From Rhodovibrio salinarum DSM 9154 (GTDB lineage Bacteria > Pseudomonadota > Alphaproteobacteria > Kiloniellales > Rhodovibrionaceae), in the NCBI RefSeq assembly GCF_000515255.1, contig NZ_KI911559.1, positions 3,352,693-3,416,692 on the forward strand: a DNA stretch of 64,000 nt. Direction: 5' to 3'. Shown here in pieces: positions 51,481 to 63,224 of the stretch (its first letter is position 1; the number at the start of each line of letters is the position of its first letter). The notes beneath the pieces are model-generated. The model was not told the DNA's origin and searched no databases. It saw only the letters and a list, made by a program, of their open reading frames with translations. The position numbers were made by a program, and so were the translations under genes.

Positions 51481-53142
51481 ATGATCTTGTCACGCAAATC
51501 GCTGTGGGTGACCGCGACCGCGCTCTGTGCCGGGCTGGCCATGCCGGCAAATGCGCAGCCGGAAACTCCGGAGCCGGTGGGCCACCCGAACTCCAAGAGT
51601 CTGGGGATTTATATCGGCCACGAACTCACCGCCGACGGTTCGACGCTGGTCGGCGGCTTCGGACACGAGCCGTCCAGCCACTGGATCGAAATCGTGCCGC
51701 GGCGCTCCTTCCCCGAAGACGCCACGATGAAGGTCGGGGTGACCGACGCCGCCCGCATCCCGGGCGAGCTCACCACGATTCCGCAGGCGCGGCAGACCGC
51801 CAAATACATCACCTCGAACTATTCCGAGTTCGCCGGCTTCCCGCCGCCGCTCACCAATGGCGGCCTGAACGAATACGGTGTGGCAGCGCGTGACATCTGG
51901 TCGCCGTCGCGCCAGGAACTCGTCGACATCGCCAAACAGAACGCGCCGCAATCAGGCCCGAACTACTCCGATCTGGCGCGCGTGGCGATGGAGCGCGCGA
52001 CCAGCGCGCGCGAGGCTGCCGCGCTCGTGGGACGTCTGATCGATGAGCACGGCTTCTCCACCTACGGCGGCAACTCGCACCTGTTCGCCGATTCCGAGGA
52101 AGCCTGGGTGTTCATCAACTACGCCGCCAAAGGCCTGTGGGCGGCGAAGCGCATCGGCCCGGACGAGGTTCGGGTGATGTATCCGGGCTACATCCACGCG
52201 TTTCCGGCCGACTTCAAGCAGCGCGACGGCTACATGGGCTCGGACAACCTGGTCTCCTTCGCCCGCGAACAGGGCTGGTGGGACGGCGAAGGCTCGCTGA
52301 ACCTGCAGGAGGTCTACGGCAAGCCGTTCCCAGCGGACGTCGAGCAGGATTACTACCCGCAGTTCTATGCCGACGCCCGGAACCCGGTGGCCCGTGAAGC
52401 CGAGCTGCGCGAGATGGCCCCGGTGTCGGTTAAGGACCTGATGGCCTATGTCCGCGATCCGCGCTGGTCGACCGATTTCACCGGCTACAGTCAGGTCGCC
52501 CACATCCGCCCCGACGCGCCGAAGCAGTTGCATACGCTGTGGACCGCGATCACCAGCGGCATCACCACGCCGTTCGTCCCGATCCCGATCGCGACGACCT
52601 CGGTGCCGCCGGAGTTCAGTCAGCACCGCTACATGACCAAGAACGCGTCCTCGCACTTCCTGGACCCGGATTATGGGCCGCTGGAGGCGACGCGCTACGC
52701 GACCCGGACGTTCAAGCGGCTGCTGTACCACACCTGCGAGCACCCGAGCGATTTCCTGCATCCGGTAACCGGCGAGATCGAGCGCTTCGAGACCGGCCTT
52801 CTGGCCCAGCGCGATGACGTCGAGGCGCGCGCCAAGGCCTTGCTGGCCGACGGCAAGACAGACGCCATGCAGCGCCTGCTGACCCGCGACGTGCACGACA
52901 ATCTGCTGGCCAGCCTGAACCTGGGCCAGGACCTCGTGCAGGCGGTCGAGCAGCAGACCCGGACCAAATACGGTATCCGCATGCCAGAAGGCGAGCGCGC
53001 AGCGGGCGAAACCACCCCGGCCACGAGCCAAGCCATGGCACGCCACGGATGGGGAGCGATGATCCACTGCTATCAAAAGGAGTTGGACGAGTACCCGCGC
53101 CCGCACGGCCTCTACAACGATAGTCCCGATCTGACCTACTAA
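51481..53142 (+). CDS. Exported C69-type dipeptidase with Ser at the usual nucleophile position
   Basis: 553 aa with a signal peptide (residues 1-25, cleavage after ANA). The mature N-terminal region NSKSLGIYIGHELTADGSTL matches the C69 (PepD/secernin) Ntn-hydrolase start, but the position normally held by the catalytic Cys is Ser (KSLG). The family motifs ITSNYSEFAGFPPPLTNGGL, SREELVD-like WSPSRQELVD and NSHLFADSEEAWV are present. Whether it is an active peptidase, a serine variant or inactive cannot be told from sequence. It faces a TRAP transporter and may supply amino acids to it. Confidence 0.8.
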   Translation: MILSRKSLWVTATALCAGLAMPANAQPETPEPVGHPNSKSLGIYIGHELTADGSTLVGGFGHEPSSHWIEIVPRRSFPEDATMKVGVTDAARIPGELTTIPQARQTAKYITSNYSEFAGFPPPLTNGGLNEYGVAARDIWSPSRQELVDIAKQNAPQSGPNYSDLARVAMERATSAREAAALVGRLIDEHGFSTYGGNSHLFADSEEAWVFINYAAKGLWAAKRIGPDEVRVMYPGYIHAFPADFKQRDGYMGSDNLVSFAREQGWWDGEGSLNLQEVYGKPFPADVEQDYYPQFYADARNPVAREAELREMAPVSVKDLMAYVRDPRWSTDFTGYSQVAHIRPDAPKQLHTLWTAITSGITTPFVPIPIATTSVPPEFSQHRYMTKNASSHFLDPDYGPLEATRYATRTFKRLLYHTCEHPSDFLHPVTGEIERFETGLLAQRDDVEARAKALLADGKTDAMQRLLTRDVHDNLLASLNLGQDLVQAVEQQTRTKYGIRMPEGERAAGETTPATSQAMARHGWGAMIHCYQKELDEYPRPHGLYNDSPDLTY

Positions 53143-53406: not shown

Positions 53407-54462
53407 TTATTGATCAGCCTCCATATACTCGGCCTCGTTGGCTTTCTTCACTTCCTGCTTAAGCAGGCCGAGCATGTCGACGGCCTTATCGCCGTAATTG
53501 CTCTCGATGTAGTCGATGAAGGCCGGCCGTGTGGCATCGCGCATCTGATCACGCTGGTCGGGCGAAAGCGCGGTGACCTGCATCTCCTGGCGCACCCCCT
53601 TCAGCCCACGGTCGGAAGCCTCGATGATCCGCGCCATGCCCCGCGAAGCGGTGACGCAGGAGTTCGCGGCGTAGCGCAGAATATTCTGCTGCCGGGCGTC
53701 CAGACCGTCCCAGAAGTCCTTCGAGAGGAGCAGCGTGTAAGGCGAGAACAGGTGGCGCGTCAGCGTCAGGTACTTCTGCACCTCCTGAAAATTGGAGAAG
53801 GAGATGATCGGGATCGGGTTCATCTGACCATCGATCACGCCGGTTTGAAGCGCCGAATAGACTTCGCCCCAGGCCAGCGGATAGGCCTCGGCCCCGAGGG
53901 CATTCATGATCACCTTGTGGGACGGGAGTTTCATCGTGCGGATCCGGACCCCGTTGAAGTCCTCCACCGTAGCGATTTCGTGCTGGGAATTGGTCACGGC
54001 GAAGAACCCGCCCGTGTCCGGGAACCCGAGAACGACGACGTCTCCAAGCGTGTCTTCGATGTCCCGCTTCAACGCCTTGCCGAACGGCCCGTCGAACACC
54101 TGATAGGTCGCCGCGTTGTTGGCGAAGGCGAAGGGCAGGTTCAGGACGTCGATCCGCGGATAGTACGACGACATGGCGCCGGTCGAGACGATGGTCGCCT
54201 GGATGACGCCGTCACGCACCATTTGGATGTGTTCGGAGCCCGAACCGAGTTCGTTGTTCGGATAGAACTCGACCTCAATCTCCCCATTAGTGTCGGTCTC
54301 GACAATGCTGGAAAACACCTGCGCGCAGGCGTGGGCGGGATTGTCGGTTGGATCCGGCTTGTTATCGTGCCCGAATTTCAGGGTTGCGGCGTTGGCGACA
54401 CCGGAAACCGCGATGGCTCCGATGACCAGAGACGACGCAAGCGCTCGAACGCTTTTACTCAT
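53407..54462 (-). CDS. dctP: TRAP transporter solute-binding protein (DctP family)
   Basis: Periplasmic receptor of a TRAP transporter, 351 aa with signal peptide (residues 1-25). DctP features: LKFGHDNKPDPTDNPAHACA start, NNELGSGSEHIQMVRDGVIQ and the GVRIRTMKLPSHKVIMNALG segment with the carboxylate-binding Arg. The ligand is unknown; most members bind organic acids. The gene order is DctQ-DctM-DctP on the minus strand. Confidence 0.93.
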   Translation of the reverse strand: MSKSVRALASSLVIGAIAVSGVANAATLKFGHDNKPDPTDNPAHACAQVFSSIVETDTNGEIEVEFYPNNELGSGSEHIQMVRDGVIQATIVSTGAMSSYYPRIDVLNLPFAFANNAATYQVFDGPFGKALKRDIEDTLGDVVVLGFPDTGGFFAVTNSQHEIATVEDFNGVRIRTMKLPSHKVIMNALGAEAYPLAWGEVYSALQTGVIDGQMNPIPIISFSNFQEVQKYLTLTRHLFSPYTLLLSKDFWDGLDARQQNILRYAANSCVTASRGMARIIEASDRGLKGVRQEMQVTALSPDQRDQMRDATRPAFIDYIESNYGDKAVDMLGLLKQEVKKANEAEYMEADQ

Positions 54463-54525
54463 ATTAAGCCTCCCTTCTGTTGTCGTTCGGAATATCCGAG
54501 AGAACTTGCTCGGGCGCGGCCCGCG

Positions 54526-55809
54526 TCAGGCGAACCCGAACAATCTCGGCACGAAGAGGGCGGCATCGCTCCAGAAGGCGAAGAGGAGCAGCACCGCGAC
54601 CTCCGCGAGCAGGAATGGCCAAAGCCGATAGGCGATCGCCTCGACCCGTTCACCGGTCACTGAAGACAGCACGAACAGACAGGCACCGACCGGTGGCGTC
54701 ATCAGCGAGATGTTTAGGGCGATGACGAAGATGATCCCGGCGTGGATCGGCGTCAGGCCGATGTCGGCGGTCAGCGGGACCAGAACCGGCGCCAGGATGA
54801 TCAGCGTGGCCGTTATATCCATCACCATGCCGATCACGAGCAGCAGGACGATAATCAGCAGCAGGACGACATGCTTGTTGGCGGAAACCGAGAGCACGGC
54901 CTCTGCCAGCATTTGGGGAATGCTATTGAAGCTCATCCACCAACCAAGCACGCTCGCGAACGCGATGATGACGAAGATCACGCCGGTGGTCCGCCCCGTG
55001 CGGAGCAGCATGTTGTAGAGGTCTTTCGGCGTGATGTTGCGGTAAACGACGACCCCCAGCCCGAAAGCGTAAGCCACGGCGACCGCCGCAGCCTCGGTCG
55101 GGGTTACAATGCCGCCCAGAATCCCGCCCAGGATGATCACCGGCATCAGCAAGGCGGCCAGGGACTGCCGGAACGCACTGGCGATTTCCCGGAAGTTGGC
55201 ACGCCGCTCGCTTCGCGGCAGATTGCGCCGGCCCGCACCGAGCCAGATCACACCCATGCAGACCAGGCAGATGAGCAATCCTGGCAGGATGCCGGCCGCG
55301 AACAGCCCGCCGATCGATACGCCAAGAAGCGAGCCGTAGACCACCATCAGTCCCGATGGCGGGATCGTCGGGCCGATGATAGACCCCGCCGCGGTCACGG
55401 CGCAGGCATAGTCGCGTGGATACCCCTGCTTCACCATCGCCGGCACCAGCGTCTTCCCGAACGCGGCGGCATCGGCGGTCGCCGCCCCGGTCAAGCCGGC
55501 GAAGAACACAGACGCCACCATGTTGGCGTGCGCGATGCCGCCCCGGAAATGGCCGACCAGCACCTGGGCAAGATGCATGAGCTGTCGGGTGATCCCGATG
55601 TGATTCATGATCTCACCGGCCAGGATGAAGAACGGCATCGCGAGAAAGGGGAAGATGTTGAGGCCGTTGAAGATCTTGCTCGGCCCCATCGCGAGAAACC
55701 GCTCGCCGCCCATTTGCACCAGACCAAACAGGCCGGTCAGACCGATGGCAAAGCCGATCGGAACCCCGATCGTCAGCAGTAGGAGGAAAGCCAGTGCAAC
55801 GAAGACCAT
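54526..55809 (-). CDS. dctM: TRAP transporter large permease (DctM)
   Basis: 427-aa, about 12-TM membrane subunit that couples uptake to the sodium gradient. The start overlaps the DctQ stop by one base. Motifs such as PLLLTIGVPIGFAIGL-type opening and SIIGPTIPPSGLMVVYG are typical of DctM. Confidence 0.95.
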   Translation of the reverse strand: MVFVALAFLLLLTIGVPIGFAIGLTGLFGLVQMGGERFLAMGPSKIFNGLNIFPFLAMPFFILAGEIMNHIGITRQLMHLAQVLVGHFRGGIAHANMVASVFFAGLTGAATADAAAFGKTLVPAMVKQGYPRDYACAVTAAGSIIGPTIPPSGLMVVYGSLLGVSIGGLFAAGILPGLLICLVCMGVIWLGAGRRNLPRSERRANFREIASAFRQSLAALLMPVIILGGILGGIVTPTEAAAVAVAYAFGLGVVVYRNITPKDLYNMLLRTGRTTGVIFVIIAFASVLGWWMSFNSIPQMLAEAVLSVSANKHVVLLLIIVLLLVIGMVMDITATLIILAPVLVPLTADIGLTPIHAGIIFVIALNISLMTPPVGACLFVLSSVTGERVEAIAYRLWPFLLAEVAVLLLFAFWSDAALFVPRLFGFA

Positions 55810-56315
55810 TATTCAGACCCCATAGCGTCGCCCATGACCGGGTTCTGCCCCAGGTCCCGTAGCATCACGAGCGCGAGCTGAATGGCGCTAAGACCAGCCG
55901 CAACGGGAATCGCCGCGAACACGGGGGCAAGCGACAGGCCGAAGACCATGGCCTGCCGGTTGATACCGCCAGCAGCGAAATCCAGGCCGTACCAGAAGAG
56001 GTAAGCGAAGAGCGCAAACCCCAGAAGATCGGCGGCGATCAGGAGCATCCGTCGAACGACTTCCGGAACCAGTTCGATCGCCAGCAACAGCCCAATGTGC
56101 TCACGTCGCGCGATCGCACAGGAAATGGCCAGCAAGGCCGTCCAGATCATCAGATAGCGCGCGAGAATTTGCGGCCAGGGAAGCTGCCAGTGAAAGATGT
56201 AGCGATCGATCACACCGATCCACACCACCAACACAAGCAGTGCCATCAACAAGACGACGAGCGCTTCGACGACCCGGTTTAGATGCTTACTGCTCAAGGC
56301 CGCTAGGTTCCGCAT
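55809..56315 (-). CDS. dctQ: TRAP transporter small permease (DctQ)
   Basis: 168-aa four-TM subunit from ATG 56315, preceded by AGGAGGGG. The conserved WPQILARYLMIWTALLAISC and the IARREHIGLLLAIE segment identify DctQ. The frame extends 67 codons upstream without similarity. It sits 52 bp downstream of the PLP enzyme gene. Confidence 0.93.
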   Translation of the reverse strand: MRNLAALSSKHLNRVVEALVVLLMALLVLVVWIGVIDRYIFHWQLPWPQILARYLMIWTALLAISCAIARREHIGLLLAIELVPEVVRRMLLIAADLLGFALFAYLFWYGLDFAAGGINRQAMVFGLSLAPVFAAIPVAAGLSAIQLALVMLRDLGQNPVMGDAMGSE

Positions 56316-56367
56316 GCCCCGCCCCTCCTGATTTGCTCGCCCTGCGGATAGATGCCTGCGCGCACGT

Positions 56368-57429
56368 TCAAACCACCCGACCGCGTGCGGCGACGGGAAC
56401 CTCCTCGACACTGCCGTCAGGCGCCAACACCTGAACCCGCTCGAACAGGTTCGAGACCACGCAGGCATGGTTCGGCACCACACGAAGACGCTCGCCAATG
56501 GTCGGCTTGGTCGCACAGCGCGACACGTCGACGATGCCGTGCTCCTCGCTCAACTCGCCGATCACGGCGTCGGGGTATTCCCGTATCAAGCCGAAGCCGG
56601 TTTGCCCAAGCATATCCGTCGTCAACGCCTTGGACCCCGCATCGAGGATCGCGCGGTCCGGCGTGGGCGTGGAGACGACCGTGGTGAGGACGGTCAGGGC
56701 GCAGTCATCGAGGCTGCCGACCCCGTAGTCGACTTGCATGCGATCGAGGTAGATGTACGTGCCCGGACGGTACTCCGTGATCGGATCGGCCAGGTGGGCC
56801 GACCACATGTCGGGCGTCCCCCCGCTCGTTACCGTCGCGGGTGGCAGCCCGGCACCTTCCAGGGCGTTCACCGCCTCCGCCAGCCACTGCGCGGTTTCGC
56901 CAACGCGTCGCTTGGGCGGATAGGTCATGATCCCGCCAAAGGTCAGGCCAGGCGACGTCTCGATGGCGTGCGCCAACTGGACCAGCTCCGCCGGCGTCTG
57001 AACGCCGCAGCGGCCGGCACCGGTGTCACACTCAACCAGAACCGTAAGCGGCTGCTCGGCGCCCTCGAAGGCCGAGGCATACCCTTGCACGGTGGCCACG
57101 TTATCGGCCGTCACCGTAAGCGAGATCCGGTGGGCCAGGTTCCGCAGGCGCTGCAGTTTCGAGGCGCCCAGGATGTTGTAGGTCAGCAGGATATCGTCGA
57201 TCCCGGCATCGGCCATAACCTCGGCTTCCCCGAGTTTCTGGCACGTGATGCCGACGGCACCGAGTGCGACCTGACGACGTGCGAAGCGCGGAAGCTTGTG
57301 GGTCTTGATGTGCGGTCGCAAGCGCAGCCGATGGGCATCTGCATACGCCTGAGCACGGGCAAGGTTGGCCTCGACACGGTCGAGGTCGACAACAGCAGCC
57401 GGAGTTTCGACGGCGGCTAAGTTGTGCAT
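56368..57429 (-). CDS. PLP fold-type III enzyme: D-threonine aldolase/D-serine dehydratase-like
   Basis: 353 aa from ATG 57429 with GAGGGA upstream. N-terminal alanine-racemase-like barrel has the Schiff-base Lys in RLRPHIKTHKLPRF (near residue 41-46). The C-terminal domain has VVPNHACVVSNL, the His/Cys metal-binding pair of D-serine dehydratase and D-threonine aldolase. The substrate is therefore probably a D-amino acid with a beta-hydroxyl group; 3-hydroxy-D-aspartate is another possibility. It lies between the RpiR regulator and the TRAP genes, so its substrate may be what the transporter imports or a derivative. Confidence 0.88.
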   Translation of the reverse strand: MHNLAAVETPAAVVDLDRVEANLARAQAYADAHRLRLRPHIKTHKLPRFARRQVALGAVGITCQKLGEAEVMADAGIDDILLTYNILGASKLQRLRNLAHRISLTVTADNVATVQGYASAFEGAEQPLTVLVECDTGAGRCGVQTPAELVQLAHAIETSPGLTFGGIMTYPPKRRVGETAQWLAEAVNALEGAGLPPATVTSGGTPDMWSAHLADPITEYRPGTYIYLDRMQVDYGVGSLDDCALTVLTTVVSTPTPDRAILDAGSKALTTDMLGQTGFGLIREYPDAVIGELSEEHGIVDVSRCATKPTIGERLRVVPNHACVVSNLFERVQVLAPDGSVEEVPVAARGRVV

Positions 57430-57443
57430 GATCGATCCCTCGT

Positions 57444-58319
57444 TCAATCGCCGATCGGGCGTGTCGGATCGCCCCTATTGAGGCTGGAAAGACTGGTGCG
57501 GATACGCCTGAGCCCCTCCAAAACGTCCGGCCCCAGGGTCTCGGCGGCTGCCATCGCAATCAGATCGACGACGATCAGCAGGGCGTAGCGTCCGGAGGTC
57601 GGCTTGTAGAGCTGATCGTCGCCGGGAAAGGGAGCTGGAAGGCACACATCCACCACCTCCCCGAGGGGGGAATCAGGGGCGCTGAGTGCCACCGTGCTGG
57701 CGCCGTACTGACGCGCGATCTTCGTCGCCTCGAGGGCCGAAGGCGCCCGACCCGACGAGGAGATGGCCACGATCACGCAATCGGAATTCGCGACCGAAGC
57801 GGTCATGCGCTGCATCTGCCCGTCCGTGTGGGCGACGACCGCGAGCCCCAGCCGGAATAGCCGGTTCTGAAGCTCGATAGCCCCCAGCGAGGAGACGCCG
57901 CCCGACCCGTAAACATAGATGCGCTTGGCCTGGGTCAGCAGGCCCGCCACCTGCTCGACCTTGGACATGTCGGCGGCTTTCGCCGCCGCGTCGACCGCAG
58001 CGTGGGCCCCTTCGCTGACGGCATTAACGATGCGCCGCGCACTCTCGCTGCGATCGAGCGGCTGGGGATAGAGGTAAAGCCCCCCGACGGCCAGCACCTG
58101 GACCAGCTGCATTTTGAAATCGCGTACGCCGTCGCACCCGAGTTCGCGGCAAAAGCGCGTGACCGATGGCTCGCTGACTCCGGCCGCCGCCGCAAGCTCC
58201 GCGATCGAAGCGCGGCATGCCTGCTCGAGATCGCTCAACATCGCCCGCGCCACGGCGCGATCCGCTTTGCTGCCCTCAGCGGCGGCTTCTCGGAGCTTGG
58301 CGATTAAGTCCAGCGGCAT
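57444..58319 (-). CDS. RpiR/MurR-family transcriptional regulator
   Basis: 291 aa. N-terminal HTH (RASIAELAAAAGVSEPSVTR, then FCRELGCDGVRDFKMQL) and a C-terminal SIS domain (VYGSGGVSSLGAIELQNRLF, ISSSGRAPSALEATKIARQYG) that usually binds a phosphosugar or related ligand. It heads the minus-strand arm and faces ridA across a 216-bp gap that contains two copies of a direct repeat. Confidence 0.93.
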   Translation of the reverse strand: MPLDLIAKLREAAAEGSKADRAVARAMLSDLEQACRASIAELAAAAGVSEPSVTRFCRELGCDGVRDFKMQLVQVLAVGGLYLYPQPLDRSESARRIVNAVSEGAHAAVDAAAKAADMSKVEQVAGLLTQAKRIYVYGSGGVSSLGAIELQNRLFRLGLAVVAHTDGQMQRMTASVANSDCVIVAISSSGRAPSALEATKIARQYGASTVALSAPDSPLGEVVDVCLPAPFPGDDQLYKPTSGRYALLIVVDLIAMAAAETLGPDVLEGLRRIRTSLSSLNRGDPTRPIGD

Positions 58320-58394
58320 CGAGGGAACTCCTCGGCAAACTCCCCCGCAAGGGGGGTGTCACGGCATGTTGGCAAGCTACGGTGGCAGCGAAAT

Positions 58395-58463
58395 TGTAAC
58401 TAAGCAACATAAAATTTGGCCTTGAGCTCAAGGAAATTGCGCATAATGTAGGAAAGCAACATA
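58395..58463. repeat. Two direct copies of TGTA-N3-AAGCAACATA (candidate RpiR operators)
   Basis: TGTAACTAAGCAACATA at 58395-58411 and TGTAGGAAAGCAACATA at 58447-58463 differ only in the three-base spacer. Starts are 52 bp apart, close to five helical turns. They lie between divergent rpiR and ridA and upstream of the catabolic arm. Confidence 0.65.
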
Positions 58464-58535
58464 CATATGCCGCGCGCCCCGCAGCGAAGGCGAGGCGATC
58501 AGGCGGCCCGACCCAGAACCAGAGGAAGGTCAGCT

Positions 58536-58904
58536 ATGCCGAGGACGTGTTACGGGAAAGCACCGGTTCCCCTGTCGCCCGCCGTACGTGCGGGCGACTT
58601 CGTCTACGTGTCCGGACAGGTTCCGATGGGCGAGGATGGATGCCTCGTCGACGGCGGCATCGAGGCGCAGACCCGACAGGTGATGGCGAACCTGGAAGCC
58701 GCTTTGAAGCTCGCCGGCGCGGGGCTTGAGGACGTGGTCAAGACGACCGTATGGCTCGACGACGCGCGCGACTTCGGGCGCTTCAATGCGGTCTACGGCA
58801 CCTTCTTCTCGTCCGAGCCGCCGGCCCGGACGGCTGTCGAATCCCGCTTGATGGTCGACATCAAGGTCGAGGTCGAAGCGGTCGCGTATCGGCCGGAATC
58901 TTAA
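58536..58904 (+). CDS. ridA: RidA family enamine/imine deaminase
   Basis: 122-aa RidA/YjgF protein from ATG 58536 with AGAGGAAGG upstream. Core: PLSPAVRAGDFVYVSGQVPM, then TRQVMANLEAALKLAGAG and the conserved Arg in PARTAVESRL. Such proteins hydrolyse reactive 2-aminoacrylate-like imines from PLP dehydratases. First gene of a ridA-amidohydrolase-creatininase-threonine-synthase-like run. Confidence 0.92.
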   Translation: MPRTCYGKAPVPLSPAVRAGDFVYVSGQVPMGEDGCLVDGGIEAQTRQVMANLEAALKLAGAGLEDVVKTTVWLDDARDFGRFNAVYGTFFSSEPPARTAVESRLMVDIKVEVEAVAYRPES

Positions 58905-58969
58905 GACCCGTCACGAGCTCGTGCAGGAACGGCCGTGCCTGCGGCGTCCTGCCCAAAGGGAATCACAGC

Positions 58970-60166
58970 ATGGCCGAACAACTGATCCTGAAGAATGCCA
59001 GAGTGGTCGACCCCTCCCAGAAGATCGACCGCGTTGCCGACATCGCTTTCGAAGACGGCCGCGTTGTGGGCCTCGGTTCAGATATTCCAGCCAACAAAAA
59101 CGCCGACATTCGGGATGTTACCGGTAAGATCGTCACCCCGGGACTGATCGACCTGCACACGCATGTCTACTGGGGCGGCACCTCTCTTGGCATCGACGCG
59201 GACGACTACGCCCGTCTCAGCGCGGTGACCACGAGCGTCGACACGGGCAGCGCCGGTGCCGGCAACTTCCCGGGGTTCCGCAAGCACGTGATTGACCAGG
59301 CACAGGCACGGATCCTGGTCTATCTGCACGTCTCCTTCGCCGGGATCTTCGGCTTCACACCCTCCCTGATGGTCGGAGAAAGCCACGACCTCCGCCTTGT
59401 GTCGGCAAAGGAAGCGGCCCGGGTCATCGAGGCGAACCGTGACGTCATCGTCGGCATCAAGGTCCGCATCGGGCGTCACGCGAGCGGTCCGGCCGGAATC
59501 CAGCCGCTCGACGTCGCGCTGGAACTGGCGGAGGAAACCGGGCTGCATATCATGGCCCACATCGACGAGCCGCCGCCGACCTACGAAGCAGTGGTCTCGC
59601 GCCTGCGCGCTGGCGACGTCCTGACACACTGCTTCCGCCCCTTTCCCAATGCCCCGGTCACCGGCACCGGCGAGATCAAACCCGAAGTCCTGAAGGCGCG
59701 CGAGCGCGGCGTGCACTTCGACATCGGCCACGGCATGGGCTCGTTCTCCTGGAAGACCGCGCGCGCGATGCTCGAACGCGGCTTTCGACCCGACACGATC
59801 TCTTCCGATGTGCACGCCTTCTGCGTCGAAGGCCCCGCCTTCGACCAGGTGACGACCTTGTCGAAATTCCTCGCACTCGGTCTGCCGCTGGACGATGTCG
59901 TCGCCGCCTCGACCTCGACCCCCGCGGCCATCCTCGGACGCCCGGAGCTCGGGACGCTCAGACCCGGCGCGCTGGGCGACGCAAGCGTGCTGTCGCTGCG
60001 CGAGACCCCTGTCGACCTGGTCGACGTGGAAGGCGCAACTGTGCGCGCAGAAGAAAGCCTGCGCGCGGAAGGCGCCGTGATCGGCGGCCAGTGGGTCGCC
60101 CCCTTCGAGCCGCACGAGTTGCCTGCCGGCGCACGCCCGGCCCATCTCGCAGCACACCGCGGCTGA
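58970..60166 (+). CDS. Amidohydrolase, COG3964 deacetylase-like
   Basis: 398 aa from ATG 58970. Metal-dependent amidohydrolase signatures: DLHTHVYWGG (HxH), the carbamylated-Lys region VIVGIKVRIGRHA, His in MAHIDEPPP, His in DVLTHCFRPF and Asp in SSDVHAF. The sequence resembles the COG3964 group of amidohydrolases/deacetylases related to D-aminoacylase and dihydroorotase. It may open a cyclic amide or remove an acyl group; the substrate is unknown. Confidence 0.85.
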   Translation: MAEQLILKNARVVDPSQKIDRVADIAFEDGRVVGLGSDIPANKNADIRDVTGKIVTPGLIDLHTHVYWGGTSLGIDADDYARLSAVTTSVDTGSAGAGNFPGFRKHVIDQAQARILVYLHVSFAGIFGFTPSLMVGESHDLRLVSAKEAARVIEANRDVIVGIKVRIGRHASGPAGIQPLDVALELAEETGLHIMAHIDEPPPTYEAVVSRLRAGDVLTHCFRPFPNAPVTGTGEIKPEVLKARERGVHFDIGHGMGSFSWKTARAMLERGFRPDTISSDVHAFCVEGPAFDQVTTLSKFLALGLPLDDVVAASTSTPAAILGRPELGTLRPGALGDASVLSLRETPVDLVDVEGATVRAEESLRAEGAVIGGQWVAPFEPHELPAGARPAHLAAHRG

Positions 60167-60177
60167 GGGGCGAGAAT

Positions 60178-60954
60178 ATGCGCTGGAGCGACCTCACAAC
60201 CCGCGACGTCGATGCGTTGGCGCGCACCACGCCGGTGGTGCTGAACATCGCGGCGGTGGAACAGCACGGTCCGCACCTGCCGGTGGATACCGACAGCACC
60301 ATCGGCGCACATTTCCTGGAACGGCTGGACACCGAGTTGGGGGAGAACGTTCTGACGTTGCCGCAGATCGCCGTCGGCTGCTCGGACCATCACCGCGACT
60401 TCACCGGCACGCTCAGCGTGGGCCATGAGACTTTCATCGCCTACGCAGGGGACATCGCAAGATCGGTGATGGGCGATGGGTTCCAGGCACTCCTGATCCT
60501 CAACTCGCATGGCGGCAACCGCGGCGCGGGACAGGTTCTGTTGGAAAAGCTCGGCCCAAGCTATCCGGACCGTCAGATCGCGCTCGCCACCTGGTGGCAA
60601 CTGGCGGCCGAACCGCTCACCCAGTTGCGCGAGAGCGCGCCCGGCGGGGTCAACCATGCCGGGGAGTTCGAGACCTCGTTGATGCTGCACATCGCCCCAG
60701 AGCGCGTCCGTCGCGACCTGATCGGCGGCCACAGCTACGCCGCGACCCACGCATGGGCCGACGCGGACATGCTTCATCCCGCGCAGGCCACCCTCTATCG
60801 CAGCATGCGCGCGATGTCGGACGGTCGCGGGACGGTCGGGGACCCGTCGTTGGCCTCCGCGGACAAGGGTCGCCGGATCAGCGAGGCCGTCGTCAAAGAG
60901 CTTTGCACCGTGGTCGGGGATCTCCACGACGCAGCCACTCGGCAAGCACCATGA
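60178..60954 (+). CDS. Creatininase-family amidase
   Basis: 258 aa from ATG 60178, 11 bp after the amidohydrolase. Metal-binding motifs of the family are visible: VEQHGPHLPVDTDS, LNSHGGNRGAGQ and NHAGEFETSLM. Members include creatinine amidohydrolase and amidases acting on other cyclic or linear amides. Its stop overlaps the next gene's start (ATGA). Confidence 0.9.
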   Translation: MRWSDLTTRDVDALARTTPVVLNIAAVEQHGPHLPVDTDSTIGAHFLERLDTELGENVLTLPQIAVGCSDHHRDFTGTLSVGHETFIAYAGDIARSVMGDGFQALLILNSHGGNRGAGQVLLEKLGPSYPDRQIALATWWQLAAEPLTQLRESAPGGVNHAGEFETSLMLHIAPERVRRDLIGGHSYAATHAWADADMLHPAQATLYRSMRAMSDGRGTVGDPSLASADKGRRISEAVVKELCTVVGDLHDAATRQAP

Positions 60955-62171
60955 ACGCCCGGGAAACAGAACGCCTGACCTGTGTTGCCTGCGGTCAGGT
61001 GCATGATATCGCCCAGGTCCCCTCGACCTGCAGTGCTTGCGGCGGGATTCTGGATCTGGACATCCCGGGACCAGAGCAGAACGCCATACCGCACGCGGAC
61101 GAAGACACGCGGAGCCTCTGGCACTGGGCGCAATGGCTGCCCGACTGCGCGCGCGAAGACCGCGTTTCATTGGGCGAGGCTGGAACGCCCCTGCTGCCCT
61201 GCCCGCGCCTTGCGGCCGACAGTCAGCTTGAATCCCTGTGGATCAAGAACGACTCGATCATGCCAACGGGCTCGTTCAAGGATCGGGCGATCGCCCTTGC
61301 CGTATCGCTGGCCCGAACGTATGGACGCCCTGGGCTGGTCCTGTCCTCGAGCGGCAACGCCGGCGCCTCGGCCGCCGCCTATGCAGCCCGGGCCGGCATG
61401 CCGGTCGTCGTCCTCGTCCCGGCCACGGCCCCGGCGGCCAAGCTGCGTCAGATCGCGGTCACCGGGGCCCAGTTGGTCACGGTCGACGGCGCGACCAGCG
61501 ATTGCTGCCGTCTGGCAGATGAGCTGGCGCGGAGCCGCGGCTGGGTTAATCTCACGACCACCTTCCACAACCCCTATGGGGTCGATGCCTACGCGACCCT
61601 GGCTTACGAGGTCGCGCAGGCGGCGCCGGACGTTTTGTTGCTGCCGATCTCAAGCGGCCCCCTCCTGGTGGGCATCATGAAGGGGTTCGCACGCCTCCAG
61701 GCCGCGGGCCTGGCCTCGAAAATGCCGAGGCCGGTCGCTGTCCAGCCAACCCGCTGCGCCCCGATCACGACGGCCTGGACCTCTGGCACACCGGTCACCT
61801 CGACGACACCCGGCAAGACGATCGCCTCGGCCTTGAGCGATACGCTTGAAGGCTACGCGGATCACGGCGCCTATACGTTGTCGTGGCTACGCCGGTACGA
61901 CGGTGCATGCCTGGCCGTTGACGAGGACGAGATCGCCCATGCCGTGCAACGGACGGCCAGATGCGAAGGGATCGTCCTCGAACCGAGCGCGGCGGCGCCG
62001 ATCGCCGCCGCCCCGCGGCTCGGCGAGGTACTTGGCATCACCCCTTCGACCCGCGTCATGGCGGTGGTAACGGGCCACGGACTGAAAGACCTGTCGATCG
62101 TCGAGACGGAAGACCTCGGCACCCCGATCCCGCCTGACTTCTCCGCCCTGACCCATCGCATCGGCACCTGA
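60951..62171 (+). CDS. Threonine-synthase-like PLP lyase with zinc ribbon
   Basis: 406 aa from ATG 60951. N-terminal zinc-ribbon CVACG...CSACG, then PLP fold type II: MPTGSFKDRA (Schiff-base Lys), SSSGNAGASAAAY (phosphate loop) and SSGPLLVG. The annotation threonine synthase is possible, but isolated homologues in catabolic clusters can be ammonia-lyases acting on other beta-substituted amino acids. The upstream ridA gene favours a deaminating (imine-forming) reaction. Confidence 0.85.
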   Translation: MNARETERLTCVACGQVHDIAQVPSTCSACGGILDLDIPGPEQNAIPHADEDTRSLWHWAQWLPDCAREDRVSLGEAGTPLLPCPRLAADSQLESLWIKNDSIMPTGSFKDRAIALAVSLARTYGRPGLVLSSSGNAGASAAAYAARAGMPVVVLVPATAPAAKLRQIAVTGAQLVTVDGATSDCCRLADELARSRGWVNLTTTFHNPYGVDAYATLAYEVAQAAPDVLLLPISSGPLLVGIMKGFARLQAAGLASKMPRPVAVQPTRCAPITTAWTSGTPVTSTTPGKTIASALSDTLEGYADHGAYTLSWLRRYDGACLAVDEDEIAHAVQRTARCEGIVLEPSAAAPIAAAPRLGEVLGITPSTRVMAVVTGHGLKDLSIVETEDLGTPIPPDFSALTHRIGT

Positions 62172-62257
62172 CTCCCGGTGACTGCGACACGCGGCCCTTG
62201 ATGTCAGCGGGGTCTTATCGACCCGTTGCCGCGTGGCGATCCGTGGCTGCGCCGCCC

Positions 62258-62953
62258 TCAGAGGACGGCGCGCAGGGAGGCCTCGATCTGGCCGCTGCAC
62301 CATTCGTCGCCATATTCCGCTTCGCTCCACGCGCGGAGGCTCGCTTGCTGCGGAAGTTGGCCGATCCGGTCGGAGAGCGCCGCGATCGCAGGCGCCTGGG
62401 TCTCAAGCAACGGCCGCAGCGCCGGCAGCTGCGATGTCATCGTCCCCCAGAGGATGTGCGTCGTGAGATCCGCAAGACTTGGCGCGTCGGTCCCCAGGAG
62501 GTAGCCCTGCTCGGCCGTCAGACCGTGGCGGCGTCCATGCTCCTCGAAGATCGCCATCCAGCGCCCAAGACGCGGCCGGTAAGCTTCCCATCGCGCCTGC
62601 GTCCACATCTGGGCGCCGTTGTGGAGCGTCATTTCGTAGAGCACATCATCTGCATCGGCGGTGATCTTATGCGTCAGGGCCGCGCGGGCCGGATCGCCCG
62701 GGATCAGGCCGTACTTGCCCCCAAGATAGGCGAGGATCGCCGGCGTCTGCCCCAGCGAAAAGTCCGCCGCATGATCCGTCAGGACGGGCGGCCCCATGTG
62801 CGGAACCACCTGCTGCGCGGGTTCGGCGTCGTGAAGGGCGACCACCTCTTCGATGCCGGCTTCGTCCCACGAAGCCTCGACATGCGCGAGGACAGCGCGG
62901 ACGAATTGGCCGCGAAACGGAGACGGCCAGTAATAGAGCGTGTAATCAGCCAT
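62258..62953 (-). CDS. Glutathione S-transferase family protein
   Basis: 231 aa. N-terminal thioredoxin-like domain (DYTLYYWPSPFRGQFVRAVL; TPAILAYLGGKYGL) and C-terminal helical domain (APSLADLTTHILWG). Converges on the threonine-synthase-like gene; 271 bp separates it from the AraC regulator. Substrate unknown. Confidence 0.88.
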   Translation of the reverse strand: MADYTLYYWPSPFRGQFVRAVLAHVEASWDEAGIEEVVALHDAEPAQQVVPHMGPPVLTDHAADFSLGQTPAILAYLGGKYGLIPGDPARAALTHKITADADDVLYEMTLHNGAQMWTQARWEAYRPRLGRWMAIFEEHGRRHGLTAEQGYLLGTDAPSLADLTTHILWGTMTSQLPALRPLLETQAPAIAALSDRIGQLPQQASLRAWSEAEYGDEWCSGQIEASLRAVL

Positions 62954-63224
62954 CTGCTCCCATCCTTCTTCAAACCCGACAGGCAGCCCGGTTCAACGCT
63001 AGCCTAGCGATCCCCACGGCCGCCGCGAAAGCCGCCCGGAGAGATGTCCCGAATTATTGATAATGCGTCGCATTTGCATATACTCACCCGCGCGTGAGCA
63101 CAGTTCGGTGTCGCGCCGGGGTTCCCGAGGCGTCTTGCCATTCGCTTCGAAAACGCCGCCCTCACCGGTCCTGTTAGCCAGTCCAACAGGATCGCGACCG
63201 CGCGTGGATCTGGACGCAGAGCAA

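Follow-up and report, generated by a model that had tools for sequence, protein, structure and literature searches.

We analyzed a window of 64,000 nucleotides from Rhodovibrio salinarum DSM 9154 (contig NZ_KI911559.1, positions 3,352,693 to 3,416,692; the host genome is one contig of 4,176,524 bases). Near the right end of the window nine genes form two tight divergent operons (53407-62171). These genes are rare as a set, and the evidence supports viewing them as conserved together and as sharing a candidate operator. Our preferred interpretation, which we hold tentatively and at somewhat less than even confidence, is that the nine genes together encode a single catabolic module under RpiR control, which would process an N-acylated (amide-capped) 2-amino-3-hydroxy acid. 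An N-acyl 2-amino-2-deoxyaldonate, for example oxidized N-acetylglucosamine (GlcNAc), would be the likeliest class of substrate.

The genes, their synteny, co-occurrence and motifs are direct observations. All nine genes named in a first-pass annotation of the window were found in place as long open frames, each matching its family. On the minus strand, the order is an RpiR-family regulator with a SIS domain (57444..58319; PF01418, PF01380), the enzyme DTA (56368..57429), and the genes DctQ, DctM and DctP of a tripartite ATP-independent periplasmic (TRAP) transporter, with intergenic gaps of 14, 52, -1 and 63 bases. DTA is a fold-III pyridoxal phosphate (PLP) enzyme of the D-serine-dehydratase/D-threonine-aldolase superfamily (PF01168, PF14031) with a His-x-Cys motif; an alternative TTG start is possible at 57447. 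The solute-binding protein DctP (53407..54462; TIGR00787, 201.6 bits with a cut-off of 175.05) and the large permease DctM (54526..55809; TIGR00786, 411.4 bits with a cut-off of 268.45) both exceed their cut-offs. The small permease DctQ (55809..56315, start picked by homology) had a weak NCBIfam match (34 bits, cut-off 260), and its assignment is backed by homologues at the equivalent place in related loci. With all three components present, this is a DctP-type TRAP transporter. The plus strand carries a RidA-family protein (58536..58904; PF01042; start picked by homology in a frame that opens at 58467), the COG3964/PRK09237-type amidohydrolase-deacetylase AHS (58970..60166), the creatininase-family hydrolase Crn (60178..60954), and TS (60951..62171), a threonine-synthase-like fold-II PLP enzyme with N-terminal CxxC pairs (PF00291 (PALP), 245.1 bits with a cut-off of 35). 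The gaps here are 65, 11 and -4 bases; the whole range inside both arms, -4 to +65 bases, is operon-like.

We found DctP, DctM, DctQ and RpiR divergent from AHS, Crn and TS in three further genomes, Nitratireductor sp. B36, Acuticoccus kalidii and the genome G075. Such a repeated gene order makes the grouping more than chance. The first-pass annotation had asked whether such gene sets are conserved elsewhere, and would have given up its proposal if the genes did not co-occur. They do, with two qualifications: everything except DTA and RidA recurs in order in all three genomes, RidA is in place in two (it is missing at the Nitratireductor locus), and DTA is in place in none. Across the three syntenic loci the identity to the window proteins was 66-68% for DctP, 59-63% for RpiR, 69-70% for AHS, 54-59% for Crn and 59-63% for TS; for DctM it was 71-76% across both these loci and the M81-type clusters described below. 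In trees, the four AHS-Crn-TS loci grouped together for DctP (84/98), DctM (82/98) and RpiR (97/95), the RpiR grouping alone passing a strict support rule. The proposed split of function between the two arms was not supported by this comparison: in all four genomes the right-arm genes are accompanied by the TRAP genes and RpiR, while DTA comes and goes.

The rarity of the set was seen in a survey of 385 genomes from within the class (thresholds of 1e-40 for Crn, 1e-50 for TS, and 1e-60 for AHS and DTA). Crn was detected in only two genomes, the own genome and G075. TS had matches in 21 genomes; those above 60% identity were again limited to the own genome and G075, and the next one was at 43%. 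AHS and DTA were found in 39 and 26 genomes, respectively. A scan of genome contigs with the TS alignment, which relied on two short peptide patterns and may therefore miss orthologues, returned five relatives. Those in Nitratireductor sp. B36 and Acuticoccus kalidii were 60-63% identical, the other three 33-35%. Searching plasmids with TS gave nothing at 1e-60.

The gap between RpiR and RidA holds two plus-strand copies of the candidate operator TGTANNNAAGCAACAT, at 58395..58410 and 58447..58462. When two mismatches were allowed, the 64 kb still contained just these two sites, both exact and both within this gap, compared to 0.19 expected; the count shows rarity elsewhere only, because the pattern was taken from those same sites. 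The ten-base form AAAGCAACAT is present in all four divergent gaps, and its presence in those of the three syntenic loci is the independent part of the evidence. It was not found in eleven scanned M81-type or other AHS/DTA loci. Two of those eleven carried AAGCAACAT (L089 at 15584 and L107 at 7795), and in L031 a one-base variant lies within the AHS gene. Judged from these patterns, the TGTANNNAAGCAACAT/AAAGCAACAT sites may serve as an operator.

We place the limits of the cluster at DctP and TS, because the other window genes between 46 and 64 kb have no real counterparts in the syntenic loci, where they gave only weak matches to ATP-binding cassette (ABC) transporters (25-30%). The start at 53407 proposed earlier stands; the end, given as 63000, is corrected to 62171, which leaves outside a glutathione transferase gene of the Atu5508 family (62258-62953) without a match in the ten related loci compared. 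On the other side, a long open reading frame on the plus strand (51481-53142) stops 264 bases from dctP; its similarity to C69-family dipeptidases is weak (63.8 bits, cut-off 250), and it too had no match in the ten related loci. The GC content of the cluster (0.646) is close to that of bases 1-53406 (0.649), so a genomic island by composition was dropped and the word "island" in the first-pass annotation has no compositional support.

Neither Crn nor TS passes as the enzyme after which its family is named. Crn passes the gathering score of the creatininase superfamily (PF02633, 209.3 bits compared to 31.3), but scored below the cut-offs of creatininase itself (TIGR04448, 85.6 bits compared to 235) and of MftE (126.6 compared to 172); it reads NSHGGN in all four orthologues versus NGHYEN in creatininase 1q3k. 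Creatinine degradation was dropped. TS fell under both threonine synthase (ThrC) cut-offs (144.7 compared to 167.1 for TIGR00260; 267.7 compared to 303 for NF006050) and a separate gene elsewhere in the genome exceeds the ThrC cut-off (TIGR00260, 258.1 bits), so a role in threonine biosynthesis was dropped as well. All four TS orthologues retain the PLP-lysine motif and both CxxC pairs, and have G-V-D-[AG]-Y-A-T where three solved threonine synthases have R-[IL]-E-G-Q-K-T. The arginine of the latter segment binds phosphate in threonine synthase.

At its metal motif DTA reads HxC, as does D-threo-3-hydroxyaspartate dehydratase 3wqc, while the aldolases 4v15, 7dib and 6qkb have HxD (the comparison covered these three of the solved aldolase matches, 7yqa not among them). 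Another dehydratase entry, 3wqg, reads HAA at this position. The motif is the same in all 13 aligned DTA sequences (the window and 12 others), and therefore dehydration and deamination are favored. D-threonine or D-3-hydroxyaspartate aldolase activity, the aldolase side of the earlier assignment, is not supported, the C-terminal site being His-x-Cys and not His-x-Asp.

DTA is the mobile part of the cluster. In Acuticoccus kalidii (L061 11387-16856) the core is directly followed by a second TRAP set, a class-III aminotransferase and a DTA homologue (62%, among the closest), which puts DTA about 4.6 kb beyond TS. In G075 it is on a different contig from the core, and in the 21 kb of contig covered in Nitratireductor sp. 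B36 it was not seen. Still, DTA and AHS were at most 4 kb apart in seven of the 12 surveyed genomes having both (own, G013, G194, G247, G294, G375 and G395); the seven represent five genera, with three of them in one genus. Within 9 kb of the 25 other DTA loci in the class survey, markers called by tblastn included AHS (6), M81 (8), D-aminoacylase-like genes (3), any of these three (15), RidA (11), RpiR (5), closely related TRAP genes (4) and KdgK-like kinases (2). These counts are lower bounds because contig ends cut some of the stretches.

AHS exceeds the cut-off of NF006689 (424.1 bits compared to 371), which identifies it as a COG3964/PRK09237 amidohydrolase. The best solved relative by sequence was 2ogj, aligned to AHS residues 27-378. 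A predicted structure, of low confidence with a predicted local distance difference test (pLDDT) score of 50.5, matched 8wzy, 2ics, 2ogj and 8je0 best (Z 19.9-22.6, 246-276 aligned residues, root-mean-square deviation 3.0-4.7), in agreement with the sequence search; over the 246 residues of this model that aligned structurally with 2ogj, identity was 28%. The titles of the four entries are uninformative on substrate. We take 2ogj to be Atu3266, whose group presumably acts on acetyl-(R)-mandelate.

At 43 of 46 AHS places other than the own one (G414, G282 and a G194 fragment were left out), the neighbors were RidA (12), amidase (12), M81 (9), DTA (6), Crn-family genes (5), TS relatives (2) and RpiR (2). 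Four of the five Crn-family neighbors, all of family f63 and 29-31% identical to Crn, stand beside AHS and RidA without the remaining core, which modestly supports the idea that AHS, Crn and RidA work together. AHS relatives with other neighbors were seen on plasmids of Mesorhizobium, Chelativorans and Thermomicrobium and, read by eye, beside possible allantoate/ureidoglycolate genes in G001. Such varied neighbors suggest that the family serves several pathways, and AHS alone does not have the power to fix the substrate. Among individual loci, a gene annotated as phosphosulfolactate synthase adjoins AHS on a Chelativorans plasmid (L066 6986-7780), and an AHS at 71% identity lies beside ureidoglycolate lyase- and allantoicase-like genes, also read by eye (L032 6522-8749). 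One more locus (L135 1710-8803) has an AHS relative together with relatives of M81, of a DgaE/SelA-type ammonia-lyase (301 bits, cut-off 385) and of TS. PLP enzymes belonging to three fold types thus occur beside AHS.

The TRAP genes lead to another kind of cluster. Four genomes (G005, G012, G143 and G324) have TRAP genes close to those of the window (DctP 63-67%) next to M81 and DTA; no AHS, Crn or TS was found beside these sets. Plasmids of Paracoccus sp. SCSIO 75233 and Phaeobacter gallaeciensis (L088, L089) carry RpiR and a DctQ-DctM-DctP-M81-DTA run, plus RidA and a sugar kinase. They share DctP (64-65%), DctM (72-75%), RpiR, DTA and RidA with the window and differ in having M81 and the kinase and in lacking AHS, Crn and TS; their RpiR is only 36-38% identical to that of the window and belongs to another tree branch. 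Ponticoccus has RpiR and DctQMP-M81 with RidA, without a DTA match. The kinases of two M81-type clusters (L088 of Paracoccus, and L103) had 2-dehydro-3-deoxygluconokinase as the best match (239 and 300 bits, cut-off 400). With the same TRAP family beside both M81-DTA and AHS-Crn-TS, one transporter family seems to feed two enzyme sets. The solved proteins closest to DctP were led by 4p47 and 4n8g, and the literature on 4n8g offered nothing useful for the DctP ligand. We also observed gamma-glutamyltransferase-family genes near an AHS-Crn-TS cluster (L031 2248-4787, where there is also a polysaccharide-deacetylase-like gene) and, by eye, near an M81-DTA-TRAP cluster (L102 1-1464).

The reactions and the substrate, as well as the function of the operator, we infer. 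In the module that we propose, the TRAP transporter would take up a carboxylate, and a metal amide hydrolase, likeliest AHS, would free the amino acid, while Crn would open or trim a second amide, lactam or lactone bond. Elimination of water and ammonia via an enamine would then fall to a PLP enzyme, DTA here and perhaps TS instead in the syntenic loci, and RidA would hydrolyze the imine to a 2-oxo-3-deoxy acid. If this acid is 2-keto-3-deoxygluconate (KDG), it could pass to a KdgK-like/Eda pair elsewhere in the genome. RpiR would bind between the two operons. The sequence of amide hydrolysis, PLP elimination and RidA clean-up sketched in the first-pass annotation is still the best scheme; it is plausible, with comparative support and a precedent. 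A broader and more doubtful proposal is a TRAP-fed alphaproteobacterial pathway for N-acyl amino-sugar acids (e.g., oxidized chitin monomers) with two interchangeable forms, M81 plus DTA and AHS plus Crn plus TS. Behind the same kind of transporter, a fold-II PLP lyase would have taken the place of a fold-III D-amino-acid dehydratase; the own genome has AHS, Crn and TS as well as DTA. The cluster yields a substrate hypothesis for a rare conserved set and for the COG3964 and M81 hydrolases, two families about whose natural substrates, as far as we are aware, little is known. If it is true, catabolism of oxidized amino sugars or N-acyl amino acids reaches Alphaproteobacteria with different transport and enzymes, and creatininase-family and threonine-synthase-like enzymes gain new jobs.

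The closest competitor, which we regard as rather unlikely, is salvage of D-amino acids or D-peptides: the TRAP transporter would import N-acyl-D-amino acids or cell-wall-derived D-dipeptides and no sugar acid, the hydrolases would release D-serine- or D-threonine-type amino acids, and DTA would deaminate them. Amidohydro_3-type genes, read as D-aminoacylase-like (best PRK09061, 156 bits, cut-off 340), lie beside DTA in three of the 25 loci; dipeptide-type ABC transporters lie beside AHS and DTA (partly by annotation, partly by eye), and an amino-acid ABC transporter beside DTA in Chelatococcus. A gamma-glutamyltransferase-family gene that lies close to the cluster of G075 (257 bits, cut-off 357.85) and the C69-dipeptidase-like gene next to dctP fit as well, but the latter had no match in the ten related loci. 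On the other hand, three observations suggest a sugar acid: KdgK-like kinases cluster with DTA, M81 and this TRAP family; in Phyllobacterium and Nitratireductor OM-1, DTA has sugar ABC transporters as neighbors; and RpiR has a SIS domain, a kind of domain that favors sugars.

Less probable still is a chance meeting of two modules, TRAP/DTA/RidA and an AHS-Crn-TS module for another, perhaps cyclic, substrate, with a hydroxyectoine-like logic of ring opening, deacylation and PLP dehydration. The lack of DTA at the equivalent place in all three syntenic loci and the PLP superfamily shared by TS and EutB-type dehydratases speak for it. Conversely, the TRAP genes and RpiR stay with AHS-Crn-TS in four of four genomes, so that transport and the right arm form a unit; DTA and AHS are neighbors in five genera, and the four additional Crn-AHS-RidA loci, one family without TS, also argue against two modules. 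We consider it very improbable that the genes serve to metabolize beta-hydroxyaspartate or a different dicarboxylic amino acid, DTA being the aldolase and TS its dehydratase. The best NCBIfam match of DTA was indeed BhcC, and BhcB was among the matches of TS, but the scores (207.9 bits compared to 690, and 78.8 compared to 550) were far under the cut-offs, the aldolase 6qkb has HxD where DTA has HxC, and two amide hydrolases would be needless.

Among known systems, hydroxyectoine utilization (Eut/Doe) uses TRAP uptake, ring opening, deacylation and a PLP dehydratase. The likeness to the window is in logic only: TS is far under the EutB cut-offs (93.8 bits compared to 413, and 75.4 compared to 413.35), and the remaining hydroxyectoine enzymes belong to families other than those of the window. 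Creatininase, RidA, threonine synthase, amidohydrolase, TRAP transporter and aldolase were searched for jointly in the open-licence literature, and no paper matched as many as five of these six terms; around DTA, RidA, M81 and glucosaminate, nothing among the matches listed was closer than the work on the ong pathway (PMC9537276).

The ong pathway of Pseudoalteromonas prydzensis handles oxidized GlcNAc (GlcNAc1A) and is encoded in a cluster with an RpiR-family repressor. OngB, a deacetylase, and OngC, a fold-III PLP deaminase, convert GlcNAc1A to KDG with release of ammonia, OngC acting on glucosaminate to give KDG; OngD, a RidA protein, is required in vivo, and KdgK acts next. The complete pathway is given there for Gammaproteobacteria and one betaproteobacterium (PMC9537276). 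A phylum survey with DTA at 1e-35 gave matches in 65 of 339 genomes; it identified no OngC, the gene contexts of these matches lying outside its scope.

Several points weigh against our preferred single-module interpretation. DTA is at the equivalent place beside the core in none of the three syntenic genomes; eight of the 25 other DTA loci had no marker, one had RidA alone and one a TS relative alone. The four divergent gaps share no perfect inverted repeat, and the predicted structure of DctP (three sequences) had a mean pLDDT of 31 and was not used. No kinase (kdgK) or 2-keto-3-deoxy-6-phosphogluconate aldolase gene lies inside the cluster (53407-62171), a KdgK-like gene (281 bits, cut-off 400) being next to eda elsewhere in the genome. 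Compared to ong, the window has a TRAP transporter instead of the SSS-family OngIT and a COG3964/PRK09237-type AHS instead of the D-aminoacylase OngB, and the comparison of DTA with OngC covered PLP fold type and dehydratase-type motif (PMC9537276).

Because the deacetylase family and the transporter differ and kdgK is outside the cluster, the nine-gene set is not a member of the ong pathway; its creatininase-family and threonine-synthase-like genes are extra (PMC9537276). The two nevertheless share an RpiR-family regulator, RidA, a deacetylase and a fold-III PLP enzyme in one regulated set. The earlier statement that no described pathway has such a set therefore gives way, since the ong pathway follows the same logic and has RpiR, RidA and D-amino-acid PLP components of the same types (PMC9537276). 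On paper, and by analogy, the pathway in the window would follow the ong logic.

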